Assembly: GCA_026416715.1 (NCBI GenBank)
Contig: JAOAEQ010000033.1
Span: 1 to 27,865, forward strand
Reading direction: 5' to 3'
Length of the DNA stretch: 27,865 nt
Origin: a bacterium
GTDB taxonomy: Bacteria > UBP4 > UBA4092 > JAOAEQ01
Below, piece after piece: positions 5,548 to 22,124 of this stretch. The notes under the pieces are model-generated. The model was given only the letters and a program-made list of their open reading frames with translations, was not told where the DNA came from and did no database searches. Position numbers and translations under genes: made by a program. The first letter of the stretch is position 1; every line of letters begins with the position of its first letter.

Positions 5548-5625
5548 AAAAAGTCGTAACCTCATATCTCATTCTCATTCCTGTGAATGAATTACAGTCC
5601 CGTGAACTCGGAAGTTGAGGCTCAT

Positions 5626-8600
5626 ATGAGTGATCGAATGCACATAATCCCGTTTGCCGACTTAATCCGTTGGATTTTCGAAGAATACGCAAACGATAGA
5701 ACGATTTTCGGAATTTCGGAATCTAAATTCTATAAACAAAAAAATAATGATCCTACCCACATTTTTTCTAGAAAGATAGAACTCCCGTTAGGACCAGCTG
5801 CCGGACCTCAGACACAGTTAGCACAAAACATCATTACCGCATATTTAGTAGGAGCGCGATTTTTCGAACTTAAAACTGTTCAGGTTATTGATGGACACGA
5901 TTTACAACTAGCTAAACCGTGTATTCTTGTTGACGATGAAGGGTATAATACCGAATGGTCAACAGAATTAACGGTTTCTCAAGCGTTGCATGAATATATT
6001 AAAGCGTGGTTTGCTCTATCAATTCTCGCGCAAGAATTCGGTCTCGGACATAAAGATGGGTTTCTATTCAACCTGAGTGTGGGCTATGACTACGATGGGA
6101 TAACCCATCCTAAAATCGACCGGTTTATTGAAGGATTAAAGAATGCCAGCTCTACCGCAATCTGGCCAGAATGTAGGAACTATGTATTAACCCATCTGAA
6201 TCAATTTAACCATATTTCTGCGGATTATGTTGATTCGATATCTCCTACGGTAAGTAATTCGGTTACATTATCAACGCTCCATGGATGTCCGCCAGAAGAA
6301 ATTGAAAAGATCGCACGCCATTTGATTGCGGTTAAAAAATTGCATACCTTCATAAAATGTAATCCAACATTATTAGGATACGATTTTGTTCGGAAAACAC
6401 TTGATACGATGGGCTATGGTTATATCTCGTTTGACGATCGCCATTTTAGAACAGACCTACAATTTTCTGATGCAATTCCTATGTTCAAACGATTGCAGGA
6501 ATTTGCTAACGAACATCAGGTTGAGTTCGGATTGAAGATATCGAACACACTACCGGTTAACATAACCAACCACGAATTACCAGGTAACGAAATGTACTTG
6601 AGTGGAAAAGCGTTATATCCGCTCGCTATTAATCTCGCCTGCCGGTTAGCCGAAGAATTTCATGGTGAGCTGAGAATATCTTATGCCGGCGGAGTCGACG
6701 CTTTCAATATTAAAGATATTTGTGAATCGGGACTTCTCCCTGTAACTTGTGTCACTACGATACTGAAACCGGGAGGATACACTCGATTTTATCAACTTGC
6801 GCAGATACTAGAAAAATGTAACTATCCAAAAACATGTATACCTATCAATGTTGAAAAACTAAAAAGAATTGCTGCAGATGCAATAATGAATGAATACTAT
6901 TTAAAGCATCAGCAAACAGCTATTTCTCGGAAACTTTCATTACCGGTACCGCTAATTGATTGCTTTATAGCACCCTGCACCGTTTCGTGTCCTATTAATC
7001 AAGATGTACCCGAATATATTCGATTAGTAGATACTGGAAAATATGGAGAAGCAATATCACTTATTACCAAACGGAATCCCCTACCTTTCATAACCGGAAC
7101 TCTCTGTACCCATCCTTGTATGGAAAAATGTTCACGGATTGATTATGATGAATCCGTTTTCATCCGTCATTGTAAACTCATAGCAGCAGAACATGGTTTT
7201 CCGCAATTCATTAGGCAACTCTCTAGACCGGCGCTAACCACTAAAAGTAAATGTAAAGTAGCGATTATTGGCGGTGGGCCTGCAGGGATGGCAGCTGGTT
7301 ATTTTCTTAGGCTTAGTGGAATCGAGGTCACTCTATTTGAGACGCGCAATAAACTCGGTGGCATTGTTGAACATATTATCCCTAATTTTAGAATTTCTAG
7401 AACTGCGATTGAAAACGATGTAAAATTGCTCGAATTGATAGGGGTTACATACAAGTTAAATTACAGTAGGCATGTTACAATTGATGAGTATAAGAAAAAA
7501 GGATTCAAATATATCGTGCTTGCAATAGGCGCATCGGTACCTGGTTCGTTAAAATTAGAGCAATGCGACAGAGAATTGATTAACGCATTAACATTTTTAG
7601 CGAGCTATAATCAAGGAACGGGTTCGGTTGCATTAGGGAAACGAGTAGCCGTTGTAGGTGGAGGGAATACCGCTCTTGATGCAGCGAGAACCGCAAAACG
7701 GATTAACGGAGTTGAAGAAGTTTATCTTGTATACCGACGAACGATAAAATTCATGCCTGCGGATAGAGAAGAACTCGAACTTGCCTTTGCGGATGGCATT
7801 AAGGTTATCGAGTTAGTGACGCCGATAAGTTTTATAAACGGGATATTAACATGCCAAAAAATGAAACTCGGAAATAATGATACTAGCGGTCGCCCGATTC
7901 CTATACCTATTCCCAACGAACTTATTGAGATTCAAGTTGATTCCGTTATTCTTGCGATCGGTGAAAAAGTTGATTCTGACTATTTATTCAACAATCATAT
8001 CCAGTTAGATGAAACAGGAAAACCAATAGTTTCACCGGATAATGAAACCTCTATACAAAATGTTTACATCATCGGTGATGCACATTTAGGTCCTTCTTCT
8101 ATCATAGAATGTATCGCTGAGGGTTTTAAAGTCGCTCGGACAATAGTGCAAAAGGAATTGAATGTGACTTTAGATTTATCCAGTAAATTTACTTATACCC
8201 TAGAGCAGATCGCTGAAATTAATCTGAAAAAAGGAATATTAAAAACCAAAAGTGAAAATAAACCATGTCTAGAGTGCAATTATTTATGCAACATCTGTTC
8301 TGAAGTATGCCCGAACCGAGCGAATGTGCAAATTCGAGTTCCCGGTTTGAAAAATTTTAATCAAATACTCCATATTGACGCACTCTGTAATGAATGCGGA
8401 AACTGTGCGACGTTTTGTCCGTACTCCAGTTCGCCATATAACGATAAGTTTACTTTCTTTTGGACTCTATCAGATTTTGAATCGAGCAAAAATGACGGGT
8501 TCGTTTCTATAGACAAAAATAAGTTCAAAATCCGGTTACTCGGTTCGATAAAAGAAGTTACTTTTAACGATAATGGAACATGGGATTACACACATGGTTA

Positions 8601-8685
8601 TACGGAAACTCTTGCAGAAAACATACGGCGATTTATTTGGACAACATACACCAAATATAATTTTTTGTTTATCAACGCAAAATGA
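5626..8685 (+). CDS. ygfK: YgfK-type Fe-S flavoprotein (putative selenate reductase subunit family)
   Basis: A 1019-residue oxidoreductase that aligns along its whole length with E. coli YgfK as I recall it (about 1030 aa). The N-terminal third is dihydroorotate-dehydrogenase-like (LPLGPAAGPQTQLAQNI, TLSTLHGCPPEEIE, NPTLLGYDFVRKTL). A glutamate-synthase-small-subunit-like part follows: cysteine region CFIAPCTVSCPINQDVPEYI, FAD Rossmann motif VAIIGGGPAGMAAGYFL, NAD(P) motif VAVVGGGNTALDAA, and IIGDAHLGPSSI. The C-terminus holds two [4Fe-4S] ferredoxin motifs (CNICSEVCPNRANV and CNECGNCATFCP). The family was named after a proposed selenate reductase; its true substrate is not settled. The start at 5626 is preceded by GAGG at a good distance and gives MSDRMHIIPFADL, matching the E. 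coli N-terminus; an in-frame ATG at 5587 is possible. The usual partners (SsnA, xanthine-dehydrogenase-like Mo hydroxylase) are absent. DUF6599 and DUF362 genes follow closely. Confidence 0.92.
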   Translation: MSDRMHIIPFADLIRWIFEEYANDRTIFGISESKFYKQKNNDPTHIFSRKIELPLGPAAGPQTQLAQNIITAYLVGARFFELKTVQVIDGHDLQLAKPCILVDDEGYNTEWSTELTVSQALHEYIKAWFALSILAQEFGLGHKDGFLFNLSVGYDYDGITHPKIDRFIEGLKNASSTAIWPECRNYVLTHLNQFNHISADYVDSISPTVSNSVTLSTLHGCPPEEIEKIARHLIAVKKLHTFIKCNPTLLGYDFVRKTLDTMGYGYISFDDRHFRTDLQFSDAIPMFKRLQEFANEHQVEFGLKISNTLPVNITNHELPGNEMYLSGKALYPLAINLACRLAEEFHGELRISYAGGVDAFNIKDICESGLLPVTCVTTILKPGGYTRFYQLAQILEKCNYPKTCIPINVEKLKRIAADAIMNEYYLKHQQTAISRKLSLPVPLIDCFIAPCTVSCPINQDVPEYIRLVDTGKYGEAISLITKRNPLPFITGTLCTHPCMEKCSRIDYDESVFIRHCKLIAAEHGFPQFIRQLSRPALTTKSKCKVAIIGGGPAGMAAGYFLRLSGIEVTLFETRNKLGGIVEHIIPNFRISRTAIENDVKLLELIGVTYKLNYSRHVTIDEYKKKGFKYIVLAIGASVPGSLKLEQCDRELINALTFLASYNQGTGSVALGKRVAVVGGGNTALDAARTAKRINGVEEVYLVYRRTIKFMPADREELELAFADGIKVIELVTPISFINGILTCQKMKLGNNDTSGRPIPIPIPNELIEIQVDSVILAIGEKVDSDYLFNNHIQLDETGKPIVSPDNETSIQNVYIIGDAHLGPSSIIECIAEGFKVARTIVQKELNVTLDLSSKFTYTLEQIAEINLKKGILKTKSENKPCLECNYLCNICSEVCPNRANVQIRVPGLKNFNQILHIDALCNECGNCATFCPYSSSPYNDKFTFFWTLSDFESSKNDGFVSIDKNKFKIRLLGSIKEVTFNDNGTWDYTHGYTETLAENIRRFIWTTYTKYNFLFINAK

Positions 8686-14974: not shown

Positions 14975-15904
14975 ATGAGTCCAAAACGGGTTAATAATAT
15001 TCTCGAATTAATTGGTGATACCCCGATAGTGAAACTTAATAAAGTGGTTGGAGAAACCGATGCAACTGTCTGGGCAAAATTAGAAATGTTCAATCCATTA
15101 TCGAGTGTGAAAGACCGAATTTGTTTAGCTATGGTTGAATCTGCGGAACAAGAAGGAAAACTAAAACCGGGAATGACCTTGGTTGAACCGACGAGTGGTA
15201 ATACTGGCATCGGGTTAGCTATGGTTGCTGCGGTTAAAGGATATCGGCTGATTCTGACGATGCCAGAAACCATGAGTATTGAACGGCGAAAACTATTGAA
15301 GGCATTGGGGGCAGAACTGGTGCTTACTCCCGGAACCGAAGGAATGCCCGGCGCAGTTAAAAAAGCGGAAGAACTCGTTACTGCACATTCGGAATATGTT
15401 ATGCTGCAACAATTTAAGAATCCAGCGAATCCTGAGGTTCATCGCCGAACTACCGCAAGAGAAATTCTAGAACAGGTTGGCAATGAAATTGACGCATTTA
15501 TTGGTGGGGTTGGCACCGGCGGAACGATTACCGGCGTAGCGGAAGTTTTCAAAGAGCAATTAAAATTAACAACAAAATTTTATGCGGTAGAACCAAGTAA
15601 ATCGCCGGTTATTTCCGGTGGAAAACGCGGTCCTCATAAAATTCAAGGGATTGGCGCAGGGTTCATTCCTGAAGTCTTACGAGTAGAACTCATTGACGAG
15701 ATTATCCAAGTGCAGGAAGAAGATGCTGTAGCTACCGCCCGAGAGTTAGCGAAAAGAGAAGGTATTCTCGTTGGGATATCATCAGGTGCTGCATGTTGGG
15801 CTGCGTTGCAAGTGGCAAAAAAACTTGGGAAAGGGAAAACCGTTGTGGTTATCTTTCCTGATACTGGGGAACGGTATTTAAGTACCGACCTGTTCGACGC
15901 ATAA
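14975..15904 (+). CDS. cysK: Cysteine synthase 1 (O-acetylserine sulfhydrylase family)
   Basis: A PLP-dependent enzyme that makes cysteine from an activated serine (usually O-acetylserine) and sulfide, 309 residues, cytoplasmic. The PLP lysine is in PLSSVKDR (Lys46). TSGNTGI binds the substrate carboxylate, [10 protein letters not shown] is the phosphate loop, and GISSGAA and PDTGERYLS complete the fold. There is no regulatory CBS domain, so it is not cystathionine beta-synthase. Before the catalytic lysine it has LSS where its paralogue at 21201 has GGS, so substrate preference could differ. An AGGGGG element lies 7 nt upstream of the ATG at 14975, and a consensus promoter lies before that. 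It heads a run of nine plus-strand genes, but a 43-nt palindrome follows its stop and may limit read-through. Confidence 0.95.
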
Positions 15905-15956: not shown

Positions 15957-15999
15957 GGAGTTGAGTGGGTATTGCTCAGAGCAATACCCACTCAACTCC
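15957..15999. terminator. 43-nt perfect palindrome (21-bp arms, 1-nt centre) after cysteine synthase 1
   Basis: The 21-nt arms 15957-15977 and 15979-15999 are exact reverse complements around a single A at 15978; the core reads TATTGCTCAGAGCAATA. It sits 52 bp after the cysK1 stop and 37 bp before the kinase-like gene. RNA from either strand would fold into a very stable hairpin. No T-run follows on either side, so it is not a classical Rho-independent terminator; it may act as a partial terminator, a 3'-end stabiliser, or a protein-binding palindrome. Confidence 0.6.
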
Positions 16000-16036: not shown

Positions 16037-16615
16037 ATGCACTTTGATAACGAAGATAAACGGCAGGTAGTCCATCTCACGATGGTAATTTTTGCGGTAT
16101 TATTACGCTGGCTCGTTAAATGGCAAGCGATGGTTTTTGCCGCTGTAGCGCTATTGTTCAATCTGTTCATCTTACGTCGGCTGATACCAGATTTGTTTAG
16201 AGAACAGGAGCTAAAAAAAGGATATTCGATTGGCATAGTTATGTATCCGCTCGTGGTCTTAATTTTAGTAACAGTTTTCCCGCTCTATATCGCTGGCGGT
16301 GCTTGGGCGATTTTAGCGATCGGTGATAGTTTCTCGAACATCATCGGACGACGGTTTGGGAAGAAGAAATTATACTGGAATCCAGTGAAAAGTTATGCGG
16401 GATTAATTGGATTTATAATTCCGTCAATGATAGGAAGCGGTTTTTTCCTCTGGTGGATTAATCCCAACATTGGAGTTAAAGAACTAATTAACTTATCGGT
16501 TATTGGCTCAATAGTCAGTGGTATATTAGAGACATTACCGCTTAAAATAGATGATAATATTTTAGTTGGTTTAGGAGCTGGAATAACGTTATTTTTTTTA
16601 TCTATATTATTGTAA
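16037..16615 (+). CDS. Phytol/dolichol-kinase-like membrane protein (VTE5/SEC59/DGK1 family)
   Basis: A small integral membrane protein of 192 residues in the CTP-dependent polyprenol/phytol kinase family, whose members phosphorylate an isoprenoid alcohol (or diacylglycerol) using CTP. Family marks are the N-terminal DKRQVVHL (compare RK..H), AILAIGDSFSNIIGRRFGK (about residues 91-109, Asp97 in the nucleotide-binding region), WNPVKSYAGLIGF (KS at 118-119) and ETLPLKIDDNILV (Glu165, DDN 172-174). About six hydrophobic segments are visible. The gene has no clear Shine-Dalgarno and starts 37 bp after a strong palindrome, so its expression may be set by that element. A Cys-rich small gene follows after 3 bp, and DUF92 and UbiA genes lie further along the strand. 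The actual alcohol substrate is unknown; some relatives are only annotated as phosphatidate cytidylyltransferase-like. Confidence 0.85.
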   Translation: MHFDNEDKRQVVHLTMVIFAVLLRWLVKWQAMVFAAVALLFNLFILRRLIPDLFREQELKKGYSIGIVMYPLVVLILVTVFPLYIAGGAWAILAIGDSFSNIIGRRFGKKKLYWNPVKSYAGLIGFIIPSMIGSGFFLWWINPNIGVKELINLSVIGSIVSGILETLPLKIDDNILVGLGAGITLFFLSILL

Positions 16616-16618
16616 GGT

Positions 16619-16927
16619 ATGAACACAATCACATCCTCACAACCAATTGAGTCAGTGTCTGGGACAACTACGGGAGAAATATGTAGCCGATGTAAAGCTG
16701 AACTCTGTCAACGGCAAATTGTATGCAATCTTGCGCTAGGTTATGAGACTGTCTATCAATGTATCGTTTGCCTGGCAAAAGAAAAAAAACAACCTGCTCA
16801 AAGCTTATTTAACTATCTGCTTCGTTATATACAAACCCGCCCTTGCTATATGATAATGTGGCAGAAAACTCGATGTTCTGATACCCAGCGTATCAGATGC
16901 GAGTTTCGTGCATCCTGTGATCAATAA
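16619..16927 (+). CDS. Small cysteine-rich protein of unknown function
   Basis: A 102-residue protein with ten cysteines, which I do not recognise. They are at 22, 25, 30, 36, 48, 51, 76, 86, 94 and 100: two Cys-x2-Cys pairs (CSRC and CIVC) separated by 22 residues, with further single cysteines between them and in the tail. The spacing of the first four to six would suit a zinc ribbon or an Fe-S site. The C-terminal part is basic (RCSDTQRIRCEFRASC). There is no signal peptide or membrane segment. It starts 3 bp after the kinase-like gene with TAAGGT just before the ATG, so it is very likely co-translated with it. Location beside sulfur-assimilation genes suggests a metal, redox or sulfur-carrier role, but that is inference. 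The start at 16619 is the only reasonable one. Confidence 0.72.
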   Translation: MNTITSSQPIESVSGTTTGEICSRCKAELCQRQIVCNLALGYETVYQCIVCLAKEKKQPAQSLFNYLLRYIQTRPCYMIMWQKTRCSDTQRIRCEFRASCDQ

Positions 16928-16992
16928 TCACTATCACCCTCTATAATTATCCGTCAATTCCCTTATTACTCTGGTAGTTTTGGGTTAAAACC

Positions 16993-17001
16993 TGCTACAA
17001 T
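16993..17001 (+). promoter_or_regulatory. Extended -10 promoter before the DUF39 gene
   Basis: TGCTACAAT is an extended -10 element (TGn followed by TACAAT at 16996-17001) in the 119-bp gap between the Cys-rich gene and DUF39. No good -35 is present (GGTAGT at the right distance), as is usual for this promoter class. It would give a leader of about 40 nt and let the homocysteine genes be expressed apart from cysK1. Confidence 0.45.
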
Positions 17002-17046
17002 GTATATTTGGAATTGGTGGATATATATGAAAAGGAGCAACCGCGT

Positions 17047-18240
17047 ATGGCAAAAACAATCGCTGAAATCAATGAAAAAATTAAAAAAGGTCAAGTGGTA
17101 GTAGTTACCGCAGAAGAAGTTATTGACCTAGCAGCTAAAAAAGGAATTAAACGAGCGGCGCAAGAGATTGATGTTGTAACCACAGGAACTTTTGGTCCGA
17201 TGTGTTCGTCCGGTGCCTTCATCAATTTAGGACATTCTAAACCGCGGATAAAAATCCAAAAAGCGTGGTTGAATGGGGTTAATGCATATGCTGGGTTAGC
17301 GGCGGTAGATATTTACCTTGGCGCAACCGAGATTCCAGATGATGACCCGGCAAACAAAATCTATCCTGGTGAATTTAAATATGGCGGCGCCCATGTTATC
17401 GAAGAACTCATCGCTGGAAAAGATGTGCGGCTAAAAGCGATTGCACATGGTACCGATTGTTATCCCCGAAAAGAAATTGATACCTGGATAAATTTAAAAG
17501 ATTTAAATCAAGCGTATCTCTGTAATCCGCGAAACGCATATCAGAATTATAATGTTGCCGTGAATTCGTCTGACCGGGTATTGTATACCTACCTCGGTAT
17601 GCTCTTACCGAAATTCGGGAATGCAAATTATTGTAGTGCTGGACAATTAAGTCCGTTACTGAATGACCCATTTTATAAAACTATCGGGATTGGAACCCGG
17701 ATTTTCCTCGGTGGCGGTATCGGGTATGTTTATTGGGAAGGAACCCAGCATACCCCAACGGTTAAACGAACAGATAGAGGAGTCCCGCGAACACCAGCAG
17801 GAACGCTAGCGGTAGTTGGCGACCTGAAACAGATGAGTCCGAAATGGATAAAAGCGGTTAGTTTCACCGGTTATGGAGTTTCGTTAGCGGTTGGAATTGG
17901 TGTTCCAATTCCAATTCTAAATGAAGAGATTCTAGAATACACCACCATTAAAGATGAGGATATCGTTGCGCCGATAGTAGATTACGCTACGGCATATCCA
18001 GAACGTAAACCAGATATTCTCGGAGAAGTTGATTATAAACAGTTACGGAGCGGAACGATTAAACTCAATGGGAAAGATGTACCGACTGGCGGGTTATCGA
18101 GTTATGCGAAAGCGCGTGAAATCGCGTTATTGTTAAAACAATGGATTCAAGAAAGGAAATTCCTGCTAACAGAAGCAGTGCAACCATTACCTGGACCCGA
18201 ATCCGGTCAGACTTTTAAGCCATTGAATGACCGACCATAA
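17047..18240 (+). CDS. COG1900/DUF39 homocysteine-biosynthesis protein
   Basis: A 397-residue cytoplasmic protein of the DUF39 (COG1900, HcyBio) family. In Methanosarcina (MA1821) this family is required to make homocysteine from aspartate semialdehyde and sulfide, independently of O-acylhomoserine. It begins MAKTIAEINEKIKKGQVVVVTAEE, a family signature, with TTGTFGPMCSSGAFINLGH next (Cys53, the position of a cysteine reported as essential, from memory). Further cysteines are at 138 (HGTDCYPRKE), 159 and 196 (NYCSAGQLSPLLNDP). It continues with a Gly-rich FLGGGIGYVYWEGTQH. There is no C-terminal CBS pair as in the archaeal protein. The start at 17047 is set by AAAGGAG 9 nt upstream; a longer TTG start is unsupported. 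The NIL-ferredoxin and UPF0280 partners follow on the same strand, the first after a palindromic gap. Confidence 0.93.
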   Translation: MAKTIAEINEKIKKGQVVVVTAEEVIDLAAKKGIKRAAQEIDVVTTGTFGPMCSSGAFINLGHSKPRIKIQKAWLNGVNAYAGLAAVDIYLGATEIPDDDPANKIYPGEFKYGGAHVIEELIAGKDVRLKAIAHGTDCYPRKEIDTWINLKDLNQAYLCNPRNAYQNYNVAVNSSDRVLYTYLGMLLPKFGNANYCSAGQLSPLLNDPFYKTIGIGTRIFLGGGIGYVYWEGTQHTPTVKRTDRGVPRTPAGTLAVVGDLKQMSPKWIKAVSFTGYGVSLAVGIGVPIPILNEEILEYTTIKDEDIVAPIVDYATAYPERKPDILGEVDYKQLRSGTIKLNGKDVPTGGLSSYAKAREIALLLKQWIQERKFLLTEAVQPLPGPESGQTFKPLNDRP

Positions 18241-18264
18241 AAAGAAAATTTCACATTCAAAACC

Positions 18265-18295
18265 TAGCGAAGAGAAGTTAAACTTCTCTTCGCTA
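18265..18295. promoter_or_regulatory. 31-nt perfect palindrome between DUF39 and NIL-ferredoxin genes
   Basis: TAGCGAAGAGAAGTT and its exact reverse complement flank a single A at 18280. The element begins 25 nt after the DUF39 stop and ends 18 nt before the next ATG, leaving AAGGAG free as ribosome site. There is no T-run (TTACC follows), so it looks like an mRNA-processing, stabilising or attenuating hairpin rather than a standard terminator. Its geometry (odd-length, one-base centre) is the same as the palindrome at 15957-15999 while the sequence differs. Confidence 0.6.
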
Positions 18296-18313
18296 TTACC
18301 AAGGAGTTAGATT

Positions 18314-18724
18314 ATGTTTAAAGAGAAACTGGTTCTAAATTTTCCACATTCGACGATTGACCAACCGATAATTTATCGGTTGATTAAAGACCATGATGTT
18401 GAAGTGAATATCCTTCGCGCGCGGATTACCCCGAAAGAAGAAGGAGAAATGGTAGTAGAATTAACCGGAAGAAGTAAACAACATCTCCAACAGGTTCGAG
18501 ACTATTTGATTGCACATGGTGTTAAACTGCAACCTCTAGAAAAGGATATCACCTGGATTCAAGACCGATGCACGCACTGTACCGTTTGCGTTGCTGTTTG
18601 TCCAGTTAGAGCGTTTAAAGTTGACCTTAAAACGAAAGAAATTACGTTCGATAGAGAAAAATGTATCGCGTGTGAACTCTGTATTCCAGCATGTCCGTAT
18701 CGGGCAATGGAAATCCGCATTTAA
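18314..18724 (+). CDS. NIL-domain ferredoxin, homocysteine-biosynthesis partner
   Basis: A 136-residue soluble protein. Residues 1-78 form a NIL domain (KLVLNFPHSTIDQPIIYRLIKDHDVEVNIL), the substrate-sensing fold also found on methionine ABC transporter ATPases. The second half is a 2x[4Fe-4S] ferredoxin with cysteines at 86, 89, 92, 96 and 117, 120, 123, 127, each set ending in CP. The domain order equals Methanosarcina MA1822, which works with the DUF39 protein in homocysteine synthesis, probably supplying electrons for reduction of a persulfide or thio-intermediate; the electron role is inferred. A strong AAGGAG precedes the ATG. The UPF0280 gene begins 4 bp after the stop codon, consistent with translational coupling. 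Confidence 0.93.
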   Translation: MFKEKLVLNFPHSTIDQPIIYRLIKDHDVEVNILRARITPKEEGEMVVELTGRSKQHLQQVRDYLIAHGVKLQPLEKDITWIQDRCTHCTVCVAVCPVRAFKVDLKTKEITFDREKCIACELCIPACPYRAMEIRI

Positions 18725-18728
18725 GGTT

Positions 18729-19448
18729 ATGCATCAAGAACGAACTTATCGTGCGCGATCTGTTGCTTCGGATTTAGTCCGGTTTGAAGTGGGTATTCAA
18801 GAGACTGATTTATTGATTTTTGCTGAGAGAGACCTGAAAGCAGAAGCGACCGCAGCGGTGTTAAAATATCGGAACCAAATTGAAGACTATATTATTCAAG
18901 ATCCGGAATTTCAGACGATATTAGTTCCGTATCCCGTATCAGAGCTCGCGCCACAAATTGTTAAACAGATGGCAGCCGCAGCGAATCAAGCTAACGTCGG
19001 ACCGATGGCAGCGATCGCTGGAGCGATAGCGGATTTTGTGGCGCTGGATTTAGCAGATAATACTAGGGATTTGATTATCGAAAATGGCGGCGATATTTAC
19101 ATCCGAACCCAGAAACCACGACGAATCCTAATTTATGCCGGCAACTCGCCATATTCCGAAAAGGTTGGAATTGAAATCAGACCGGAACAAACTCCATGTG
19201 GAGTATGTACTTCCTCAGGAACAGTTGGTCATTCGTTAAGTTTTGGTAAAGCGGATGCTGTGACTATTGTAGCGAAAACCGCAACGTTAGCTGATGCGGT
19301 AGCTACCGCCGTTGGGAATATCATTAAAGAACCTACGGATATTAACGCTGGGATAGCATTTGCTCGAAATATTCAAGGGATCACCGGCGTGGTCATTATC
19401 ATCAAAGATAAACTTGGTGTCTGGGGAGATATCCAATTATGGAAATAA
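18729..19448 (+). CDS. UPF0280/COG2122 ApbE-like protein
   Basis: A 239-residue cytoplasmic protein of UPF0280 (COG2122), distantly related to the FAD:protein FMN transferase ApbE. Family regions are MHQERTYRARS at the N-terminus, VGPMAAIAGAIADFVA in the middle, IIENGGDIYI, then TPCGVCTSSGTVGHSLSFGKADAV with two cysteines, and TLADAVATAVGN. In methanogens COG2122 is linked to sulfide assimilation into homocysteine together with COG1900 and the NIL-ferredoxin; its exact reaction is not established as far as I know. I take the ATG at 18729 as start because longer versions would overlap most of the ferredoxin domain gene in another frame and lack family sequence. TAAGG from the preceding stop codon is the only ribosome site and is close. 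Its last 10 nt overlap the DUF92 gene. Confidence 0.9.
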   Translation: MHQERTYRARSVASDLVRFEVGIQETDLLIFAERDLKAEATAAVLKYRNQIEDYIIQDPEFQTILVPYPVSELAPQIVKQMAAAANQANVGPMAAIAGAIADFVALDLADNTRDLIIENGGDIYIRTQKPRRILIYAGNSPYSEKVGIEIRPEQTPCGVCTSSGTVGHSLSFGKADAVTIVAKTATLADAVATAVGNIIKEPTDINAGIAFARNIQGITGVVIIIKDKLGVWGDIQLWK

Positions 19449-20188
19449 CTCACTCTTTTATCCAAGCAATTTTAGTTAATGGAATTATTGCCGGTATCGC
19501 CTATTACACAAAAGTGGTTCGTAAATCTGGGATAATCGGTGGATTATTGGTCGGGATACCGATTTATTATTTTCTCGGATACCGCGGGTTTATCATACTA
19601 TTTGCGATGTTTATTTTAGGAACATTGGCAACCAAAATTGGATTTAGAACAAAACAAGACCTTGGATTAGCTGAAGCGGAAGCAGGAGCACGCGGATTCA
19701 CTAATGTGATTGCAAAATGTTTACCTGGGGTAGTGTTTGCTTTTCTAAGTTCATTTGCTGATGAGTATAGCGGTTTTTTCTTCAAAGCGATGTCATTAGG
19801 ATTTATCACATCATTTGCAACCGGCGCGTTTGATACCGTCTCTGGTGAAATTGGGCAAGTATATGGTAAACGCGCATTTACCCTACTCCCGCCTAAAAAA
19901 GCTAAACCGGGAACTGAAGGCGCAATTTCTTTCGAGGGTACCCTAGCAGGACTACTCGCTGCGCTCATTGTCATTCTATTAGGTTATTGGCTGATTTTAT
20001 CTCAATGCCCGATGAAATTTAAACAAGCGGTTTTTATTCCAATCACGGCAGCTATCATAGCAAATCTAATTGAAAGTATCCTTGGTTCGCAGTTCGAACA
20101 AAAACAATTACTCGGTAAATTTGGGTCAAATCTTATTAATATAACCCTTGGTGGTACTCTCGCAGTATTACTTTTCAGAATTCTATGA
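19439..20188 (+). CDS. DUF92 membrane protein, phytyl-phosphate-kinase-like (VTE6 family)
   Basis: A 249-residue integral membrane protein of DUF92 (COG1836/TMEM19). The plant member VTE6 phosphorylates phytyl phosphate to phytyl diphosphate. Signature stretches are GTLATKIGFRTKQDLGLAEAEAGARGFTNVIA (residues 61-92), ATGAFDTVSGEIGQVYG (127-143, with the conserved D..SSE-type segment), PGTEGAISFEGTLAGLLA (157-174) and ESILGSQFEQKQLLGKFGSNLIN near the end. About six membrane segments are visible. The ATG lies inside the last codons of the UPF0280 gene (10-nt overlap) and its TGA overlaps the next ATG (ATGA), which binds it tightly to both neighbours. The prenyl substrate in this organism is unknown; phosphorylation of a polyprenyl phosphate is the best inference from the family. 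Confidence 0.9.
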   Translation: MEITHSFIQAILVNGIIAGIAYYTKVVRKSGIIGGLLVGIPIYYFLGYRGFIILFAMFILGTLATKIGFRTKQDLGLAEAEAGARGFTNVIAKCLPGVVFAFLSSFADEYSGFFFKAMSLGFITSFATGAFDTVSGEIGQVYGKRAFTLLPPKKAKPGTEGAISFEGTLAGLLAALIVILLGYWLILSQCPMKFKQAVFIPITAAIIANLIESILGSQFEQKQLLGKFGSNLINITLGGTLAVLLFRIL

Positions 20189-21126
20189 AAATTATAGAAA
20201 AAATAAAGTTATATTGGAATTTTACTCGACCATTTACCCTCGTTGCACCAGCGTTAGGGTTTTTCTCCGGTGGTATCACTGCGGTTGGGTCTAGAGCGCA
20301 TCGCGTAGGACTTAGTTTTTTCCAAGAAATCAACTGGATGCAGGATGTATATTTTATTCTACTCGGTTCCTTAATGGCAGCAACCTTAAACGCAGCGTCG
20401 AATGTTCTCAATCAAATTTACGATCTGCCGATAGATAAATTTAATAAACCAAACCGACCATTATGTACCGGGATTATCTCGATACACTCCGCGAAAATTT
20501 ATGCAGGATTTCTATACGCGATTGCCCTGTTGCTCGGTTGGTTTGTAGCACCACACGGACGGCATGAATGTTTCTGGCTAGCGTTCATCGCTGCCGTTTT
20601 TACGTACATCTATTCCGTTCCACCAATTCGTACGAAACGATTAGGTATGATAGCAAATATTACTATAGCAATCCCGCGCGGGGTTATGCTTAAAGTTGCA
20701 GGGTGGTCAGCCGGACTGACCATTTTTTTGGCTGAACCGTGGTATATCGGCTTAATTTTCGGTCTCTTCCTGTTAGGAGCAACAACAACGAAAGATTTTG
20801 CGGATTTAGAAGGCGATAAACAATATGGATGTAATACGTTACCTGTACGATATGGGGTTAAGAAAAGCGCACTGATTATTTCACCATTTTTTGTTATTCC
20901 TTGGCTCCTATTACCACTCGGCGCAATGACCGGAATTTTAACCGGAAATAAATCCGCATTAATAATTCTGGGTAGTATTTTAACCGTTTGGGGTATTTTT
21001 GTTGATTATTTAATGTTACGCAAACCAGAAGAACTTGCAACTGATGAAAATCATATCTCCTGGAAGCATATGTATTTAATGATGTTTGTCGCCCAAATCG
21101 GATTTGCCATATCGTATATGTTATAA
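20185..21126 (+). CDS. UbiA-family membrane prenyltransferase
   Basis: A 313-residue integral membrane prenyltransferase that transfers an isoprenoid chain from its diphosphate to an acceptor. The two metal-diphosphate motifs are present: NQIYDLPID with N76, D80, D84 followed by KPNRPL, and D204-x2-D207-x3-D211 in DFADLEGDKQYG. YSVPPIRTKRLGM (about 143-155) and about eight to nine hydrophobic segments fit the family. The N-terminal FTRPFTLVAPALGFFSGG resembles the branch with chlorophyll synthase, homogentisate prenyltransferase and geranylgeranylglyceryl-phosphate transferases, but the acceptor cannot be assigned by eye; a quinone or tetraether-like lipid precursor are both possible. Its start codon overlaps the DUF92 stop (ATGA), implying coupled translation and supply of its diphosphate substrate by that kinase-like protein. 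Confidence 0.92.
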   Translation: MKIIEKIKLYWNFTRPFTLVAPALGFFSGGITAVGSRAHRVGLSFFQEINWMQDVYFILLGSLMAATLNAASNVLNQIYDLPIDKFNKPNRPLCTGIISIHSAKIYAGFLYAIALLLGWFVAPHGRHECFWLAFIAAVFTYIYSVPPIRTKRLGMIANITIAIPRGVMLKVAGWSAGLTIFLAEPWYIGLIFGLFLLGATTTKDFADLEGDKQYGCNTLPVRYGVKKSALIISPFFVIPWLLLPLGAMTGILTGNKSALIILGSILTVWGIFVDYLMLRKPEELATDENHISWKHMYLMMFVAQIGFAISYML

Positions 21127-21200: not shown

Positions 21201-22124
21201 ATGCCGTTGGCAATTGCAGAAAATATTTTAGACCTCATCGGAAATACACCGTTAGTCAAATTACATCATCTTTTCCGACCAAATTCGGCGACAGTTTATG
21301 CAAAACTTGAATTCCAGAATCCGGGTGGAAGCGTGAAAGACCGAATTTGTATAGCAATGCTCGAAGAAGCGGAAAAGCGCGGATTAATTAAACCGGGTTC
21401 AACTATAGTTGAACCGACGAGCGGAAACACCGGCATAGGGTTAGCGCTGGTTGCTGCGGTAAAAAAATATCGGCTCATTTTAACGATGCCGGAATCAATG
21501 AGTGAAGAACGGATAAAAATGCTGAAGTTGTATGGAGCAGAAGTGATTCTCACTCCGGCAAAAGACGGTATGCTTGGTGCGATTGCAAAAGCGGAAGAAA
21601 TTATCGCGAATACTCCCGGTGCATTTATGCCGCAACAGTTTAAAAATCCAGCGAATCCGGCGATACATCGGAAAACTACCGGTCCGGAAATTTTTAAAGC
21701 GCTCAAAGGTAACCTTGACGCGGTAGTTATCGGCGTTGGAACCGGCGGAACGTTAACAGGAATAGCCGAATTTTTAAAAAAGAAGAAACCGGCGATTAAA
21801 ATCATTGCCGTTGAACCAGCATCGTCAGCGGTTCTCTCCGGTAAAAAAGCTGGACCGCATACTATTCAAGGGATAGGTGCCGGATTTATTCCAGAAGTGT
21901 TAAATCCAAAGGTTATAGATGAAATTGTTTGTATTAACGATACTGAAGCGTATCAAATGGCAAAACGATTGGCTACCGAAGAAGGGATACTTGCTGGGAT
22001 ATCGAGCGGAGCCGCGGTGGCTGCAGCAAGCAAAATAGCAGAACAATTAGGACAGGGAAAAATTGTGGTCGTCATTCTGCCGGATCGTGGTGAACGATAC
22101 TTAAGTGTTGCAGAATTTAGTTAA
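21201..22124 (+). CDS. cysK: Cysteine synthase 2 (O-acetylserine sulfhydrylase family)
   Basis: A second PLP-dependent cysteine synthase, 307 residues, clearly paralogous to the one at 14975 (shared NIL-LIG-TP-VKL start, [52 protein letters not shown]). The PLP lysine is Lys46 in NPGGSVKDR, the more usual sequence for the family. GVGTGGTLTG and GISSGAA are intact and there is no CBS domain. The ATG at 21201 has no good Shine-Dalgarno and follows a 74-bp gap after the UbiA gene, so it may be the last gene of that operon. Its 3' end overlaps the convergent response-regulator gene by 8 bp, leaving no room for a terminator outside coding sequence. Confidence 0.95.
   Translation: MPLAIAENILDLIGNTPLVKLHHLFRPNSATVYAKLEFQNPGGSVKDRICIAMLEEAEKRGLIKPGSTIVEPTSGNTGIGLALVAAVKKYRLILTMPESMSEERIKMLKLYGAEVILTPAKDGMLGAIAKAEEIIANTPGAFMPQQFKNPANPAIHRKTTGPEIFKALKGNLDAVVIGVGTGGTLTGIAEFLKKKKPAIKIIAVEPASSAVLSGKKAGPHTIQGIGAGFIPEVLNPKVIDEIVCINDTEAYQMAKRLATEEGILAGISSGAAVAAASKIAEQLGQGKIVVVILPDRGERYLSVAEFS

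Follow-up and report, generated by a model that had tools for sequence, protein, structure and literature searches.

We analysed a 27,865-bp stretch of bacterial DNA (the window), which is an entire contig of a 2.96-Mb, 100% complete host genome from a sparsely sampled phylum, and examined three of its genes: one for a kinase-like membrane protein of SEC59/VTE5 type (KIN), one for a DUF92 protein of the VTE6 family and one for a UbiA prenyltransferase. These genes form a real, recurring set that is found together in distant bacteria more often than expected by chance. Judged from their sequences, they probably constitute a prenol salvage-and-transfer module, a reading that we hold with moderate confidence, in which the sulfur genes interleaved with them would be coincidental operon neighbours. 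What was observed in support of this reading is homology, conserved catalytic residues, placement in clades, co-occurrence and gene linkage. The three genes are as follows.

16037..16615, + strand: KIN, predicted SEC59/VTE5-like prenol kinase, a membrane protein of 192 amino acids (homology to the N-terminal domain of fusion proteins, invariant residues, CdsA-like core)
19439..20188, + strand: DUF92, VTE6-family protein, predicted prenyl-phosphate kinase (PF01940, 151 bits against a cut-off of 27.5)
20185..21126, + strand: UbiA prenyltransferase of a clade outside the references used (PF01040, 126 bits against 34.2; both Asp-rich motifs)

The recurrence of the set was assessed in 386 genomes drawn from across the bacteria. 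Relatives of the window UbiA, with 42-55% identity, were present in 20 other genomes, giving a clade of 21 genomes from 15 families. DUF92 was found in 16 of these 21 genomes, compared with 46 of the 365 others (odds ratio 22, p = 3.5e-10), and when families were counted instead the figures were 13/15 and 36/245 (p = 7e-9); weak DUF92 matches in G022, G169 and G187 were left out of the counts. Of the 16 genomes carrying both the clade UbiA and DUF92, seven encode KIN and DUF92 as one fusion protein (G084, G119, G144, G256, G281, G349 and G354) and two more have them as adjacent genes (G036 and G181), making nine fused or adjacent pairs; in the window, the sulfur genes separate the two, and in G111, G122, G247, G259, G374 and G385 KIN does not lie near DUF92. 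The UbiA gene itself adjoins DUF92 or a KIN-DUF92 fusion in four cases, namely the window, G385, G119 and G256, while a UbiA beside DUF92 at locus L145 was of a different, DGGGP-synthase-like kind and was not counted. Other members of the phylum of G385 have UbiA and no DUF92 within the short stretches examined. Apart from the trio, the sole neighbour recurring directly beside UbiA across families is a prenyl diphosphate synthase gene, matched best by models of farnesyl and geranylgeranyl diphosphate synthase (G209, G339, G084 and G036). Because fusion, adjacency and co-occurrence all extend across distant bacteria, we regard the trio as an evolutionary set. The DUF92 proteins are matched as well: the tree took in 15 of the 16 DUF92s from UbiA-clade genomes, the characterised VTE6 itself being absent from it, and all 15 sit in one supported clade (96, starred) of 21 members. 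The other six include proteins from G048, G192 and G323, which are cyanobacterial by their ChlG equivalog.

The window KIN aligns with the N-terminal domain of the KIN-DUF92 fusion proteins and shares their invariant residues. In an alignment with 24 homologues, D97, K118, G122, E165, D173 and N174 were invariant, so that the catalytic residues of the VTE5/SEC59 kinases (two Asp, K(S/T)xxG and DN) are all in place. A profile comparison recovered a CdsA-like GD...K(S/T)xxG core at a moderate probability of 58%. KIN itself had no Pfam match and did not exceed the cut-off of PF01148 (CTP-transferase family), which nine of 25 KIN family members matched weakly. The alignment with its homologues nevertheless indicates that KIN is probably of the SEC59/VTE5/CTP-transferase type. 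A single-sequence structure prediction was poor (predicted local distance difference test, pLDDT, of 64) and was not used. The DUF92 protein scored below the NCBIfam TIGR00297 cut-off (163 against 205.85 bits). The KIN and DUF92 profiles are weakly related to each other, a relationship also reported for the archaeal proteins (PMC5898192).

The window UbiA belongs to the UbiA superfamily, possessing PF01040 and two Asp-rich motifs, and members of its clade share a C-terminal signature of the NHxSWKHMY type. In the phylogenetic tree, the clade was monophyletic (96/100, starred) and fell outside all of the references, which were ChlG, BchG, homogentisate phytyltransferase, DGGGP synthase, MenA, CtaB and E. 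coli UbiA. Its nearest reference was homogentisate phytyltransferase, placed as sister with weak support (91/79, not starred). The individual candidates were rejected as identities for the window protein. It scored 113 bits against a cut-off of 313 and 99 against 212 for ChlG/BchG, which were separate in the tree, yet joining them to the clade was not rejected (p-AU 0.12). It scored 94 against 226 bits for homogentisate phytyltransferase, a sister at most, and 87 against 296 bits for DGGGP synthase, which formed a separate clade and would lack its GGGPS partner; MenA was also under its curated cut-off. A tblastn search of plasmids returned no KIN or DUF92 match, and the UbiA query gave only distant ChlG and DGGGP synthase. 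The two other UbiA-family genes of the host encode a decaprenyl-phosphate phosphoribosyltransferase and an IspH-UbiA fusion; in L217 (G000:C15), positions 493-2271 encode IspH with a C-terminal UbiA-like domain in a single open frame. None of the host's UbiA matches was of ChlG type, and the host is therefore not expected to be photosynthetic.

Taken as a pathway, KIN would phosphorylate a free prenol to the prenyl phosphate, with CTP by family analogy, DUF92 would convert this into the prenyl diphosphate, and the UbiA-clade enzyme would move the prenyl group onto a lipid-soluble acceptor, the product perhaps being handed directly from enzyme to enzyme. The transferred group is probably C20 geranylgeranyl or a reduced form of it, because the nearest solved structures (chlorophyll synthase and DGGGP synthase, with 6M31 among the resemblances) and the nearest named models (which include ChlG/BchG, homogentisate phytyltransferase and DGGGP synthase) are those of enzymes using C20 donors. 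A gene of the geranylgeranyl-reductase family was enriched with the UbiA clade (18/21 genomes vs 182/365, p = 0.0013); the host carries one, on another contig, and in G036 such a gene lies near KIN-DUF92. It is conceivable, although we would put it forward only tentatively, that the clade makes an undescribed prenyl lipid, distinct from the known quinones, chlorophyll, tocopherol and archaeol, in many non-photosynthetic bacteria, with its chain recycled by the dedicated salvage pair.

The genes enclosed by or flanking the trio in the window are the following.

14975-15904 and 21201-22124: cysteine synthase (CysK), one on each side
16619..16927, + strand: cysteine-rich open reading frame of 102 amino acids, between KIN and HcyBio, starting 3 bp after KIN
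17047..18240, + strand: HcyBio/COG1900 (DUF39), sulfide-to-homocysteine (PF01837, 525 bits; start placed from the ribosome-binding site)
18314..18724, + strand: NIL-domain 2[4Fe-4S] ferredoxin of the homocysteine set (PF09383, 58 bits, and two Fer4)
18729..19448, + strand: COG2122 (UPF0280) of the homocysteine set (NF003323, 311 bits against a cut-off of 271)

The starts of HcyBio and COG2122 were corrected to the likely positions 17047 and 18729. Downstream, UbiA overlaps DUF92 by 4 bp. An earlier note on this DNA had described kinase-like, DUF92 and UbiA genes at 16037, 19439 and 20185 enclosing COG1900, NIL-ferredoxin and COG2122, and family matches and alignment bear out all six assignments. 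Desulfovibrio needs HcyBio, NIL-ferredoxin and COG2122 to form homocysteine out of aspartate semialdehyde and sulfide (PMC5764234); all three are present together here and would make homocysteine from sulfide. The same note had also entertained a sulfur-containing prenyl lipid as a product. In such a joint pathway, the sulfur of the lipid would come from the sulfide genes, and the tight packing of the contig, where DUF92 overlaps COG2122 by 10 bp, speaks for it. Recurrence elsewhere does not. Across 80 other COG1900 loci, HcyBio repeatedly has CysK and NIL-ferredoxin, and often COG2122, as company, and blastp found no KIN, DUF92 or UbiA beside COG1900 in any of them, although such searches can overlook membrane proteins that have diverged and many loci were short. 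The clade UbiA was absent from all 50 COG1900 genomes searched; two of the 50 have a weaker UbiA match, which the tree placed with DGGGP-synthase-like proteins. HcyBio was present in 4 of the 21 genomes with the UbiA clade and in 72 of the 365 without it (odds ratio 0.96, chance level) and was not associated with DUF92 either (odds ratio 0.75; 386 genomes). Since the mixture did not recur in these loci and genomes and co-occurrence was at chance level, it looks local to the host, and because genetics has already assigned the three sulfur genes to homocysteine synthesis (PMC5764234), we give hardly any credence to a joint sulfur-prenyl pathway; they are probably independent, coincidental neighbours of the trio. 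The part of the earlier proposal that stands is thus the prenol salvage and transfer, which fusion, adjacency and co-occurrence fit, and not the link to sulfide assimilation. Within the sample searched, the combined locus is confined to this one assembly, an outcome that the earlier note had named as refuting its proposal, while the trio is not.

Other roles for the three genes were also considered. The UbiA protein could be a quinone prenyltransferase acting on a quinone or naphthoquinone precursor, with the two kinases recycling the tail: the host has no standard MenA or UbiA among its other UbiA-family matches, and the weakly supported sister, homogentisate phytyltransferase, makes a quinol precursor. 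However, the protein lies far under the MenA, MqnP and UbiA equivalog cut-offs, several further UbiA paralogues are present in most genomes of the clade, and no quinone genes were recognised near clade members, so that this role seems unlikely. A housekeeping UbiA clade without kinase linkage elsewhere, which the earlier note named as grounds for abandoning its proposal, is not what we found, as no known housekeeping role fits and the kinases are linked in other genomes. That KIN-DUF92 serves dolichol- or undecaprenol-type phosphate metabolism while UbiA does something unrelated appears quite improbable given how strongly they co-occur, that their DUF92s fall in a matched subclade and that they are directly adjacent in three unrelated families, even though KIN-DUF92 fusions are also present in many genomes without the clade UbiA and DUF92 has been linked to the uppS gene in archaea (PMC5898192). 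In one family (f36; loci L205, L206 and L207), the UbiA-clade gene is followed by a polyprenyl-phosphate-sugar-type glycosyltransferase, which also accords with unrelated functions. Archaeal-type ether lipids, with UbiA as DGGGP synthase and KIN as a CDP-archaeol-synthase-like enzyme, are very unlikely because no PcrB/GGGPS was found in the complete host genome; GGGPS exceeded its cut-off in just 3 of 21 clade genomes, one of them marginally, and the DGGGP-synthase-like proteins, whose cut-offs the window UbiA does not reach, form a separate clade (100/100, starred). These observations outweigh the resemblance of UbiA to DGGGP synthase models and 6M31 and the presence of such genes in FCB-group bacteria (PMC7852524).

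Several points weigh against the salvage-and-transfer module itself. KIN has no family match over any curated cut-off, 5 of the 21 UbiA-clade genomes are without DUF92, and UbiA lies away from KIN and DUF92 in most genomes. The co-occurrence statistics are only partly corrected for relatedness, and in the host genome the DUF92-UbiA pair and the sulfur genes lie tightly packed.

The trio contains the same three protein superfamilies as phytol salvage in plants and cyanobacteria, which employs VTE5, VTE6 and then homogentisate phytyltransferase or ChlG. The window DUF92 shares a clade with cyanobacterial DUF92s, whereas the window UbiA falls outside ChlG and homogentisate phytyltransferase and its host has no ChlG-type match. 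Fusion of a SEC59-like domain with DUF92 is already known in archaea (e.g. Mbar_A3310; PMC5898192), where the KIN domain precedes DUF92 as in many of the bacterial fusions found here. In the window, by contrast, KIN and DUF92 have a gene each, with the sulfur genes lying in between, and the available parts of that paper describe no association with UbiA. The bacterial GGGPS and DGGGPS system for archaeal-type lipids (PMC7852524) has the UbiA superfamily and a geranylgeranyl diphosphate (GGPP)-type donor in common with the trio; it differs in that no GGGPS was found in the host and the window UbiA belongs to another clade. Compared with the DUF39/NIL-ferredoxin/COG2122 system (PMC5764234), the homocysteine set of the window, whose three genes are adjacent with CysK on both sides, is ordinary, and only the surrounding KIN and DUF92-UbiA genes are unusual. 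In the open-access literature, which was the scope of our search, no report was found that pairs this UbiA clade with kinases of the VTE5/VTE6 type. Few genes have been assigned to prenol or prenyl-phosphate kinases, and most of these are from plants and cyanobacteria (PMC9782597). A UbiA clade travelling with a specific DUF92 subclade in distant bacteria offers a defined, testable target of three enzymes with likely C20 substrates; the striking mixture with sulfur genes calls for caution, being probably a local accident.

Further features were noted around the genes of the set. In two genomes (L208 and L209), the UbiA-clade gene has a NUDIX-like gene on one side and a TPR-like one on the other. 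Extended SDR genes precede KIN-DUF92 or DUF92 at four loci, being nucleotide-sugar dehydratase-like in L138 and L154 and HpnA-like in L158 and L170. The cysteine-rich open reading frame at 16619-16927 had no Pfam or NCBIfam match, and tblastn of the loci examined gave no homologue. Two strong, perfect hairpins without a T-run lie in the window, one at 15957-15999 between CysK and KIN (20-bp stem, with a folding energy of -41 kcal/mol for the stretch) and one at 18265-18295 between HcyBio and NIL-ferredoxin (14-bp stem, -21 kcal/mol), and transcription may be split at these positions. Upstream, positions 5587-8685 encode a YgfK protein resembling a selenate reductase subunit (1345 bits against a cut-off of 835).

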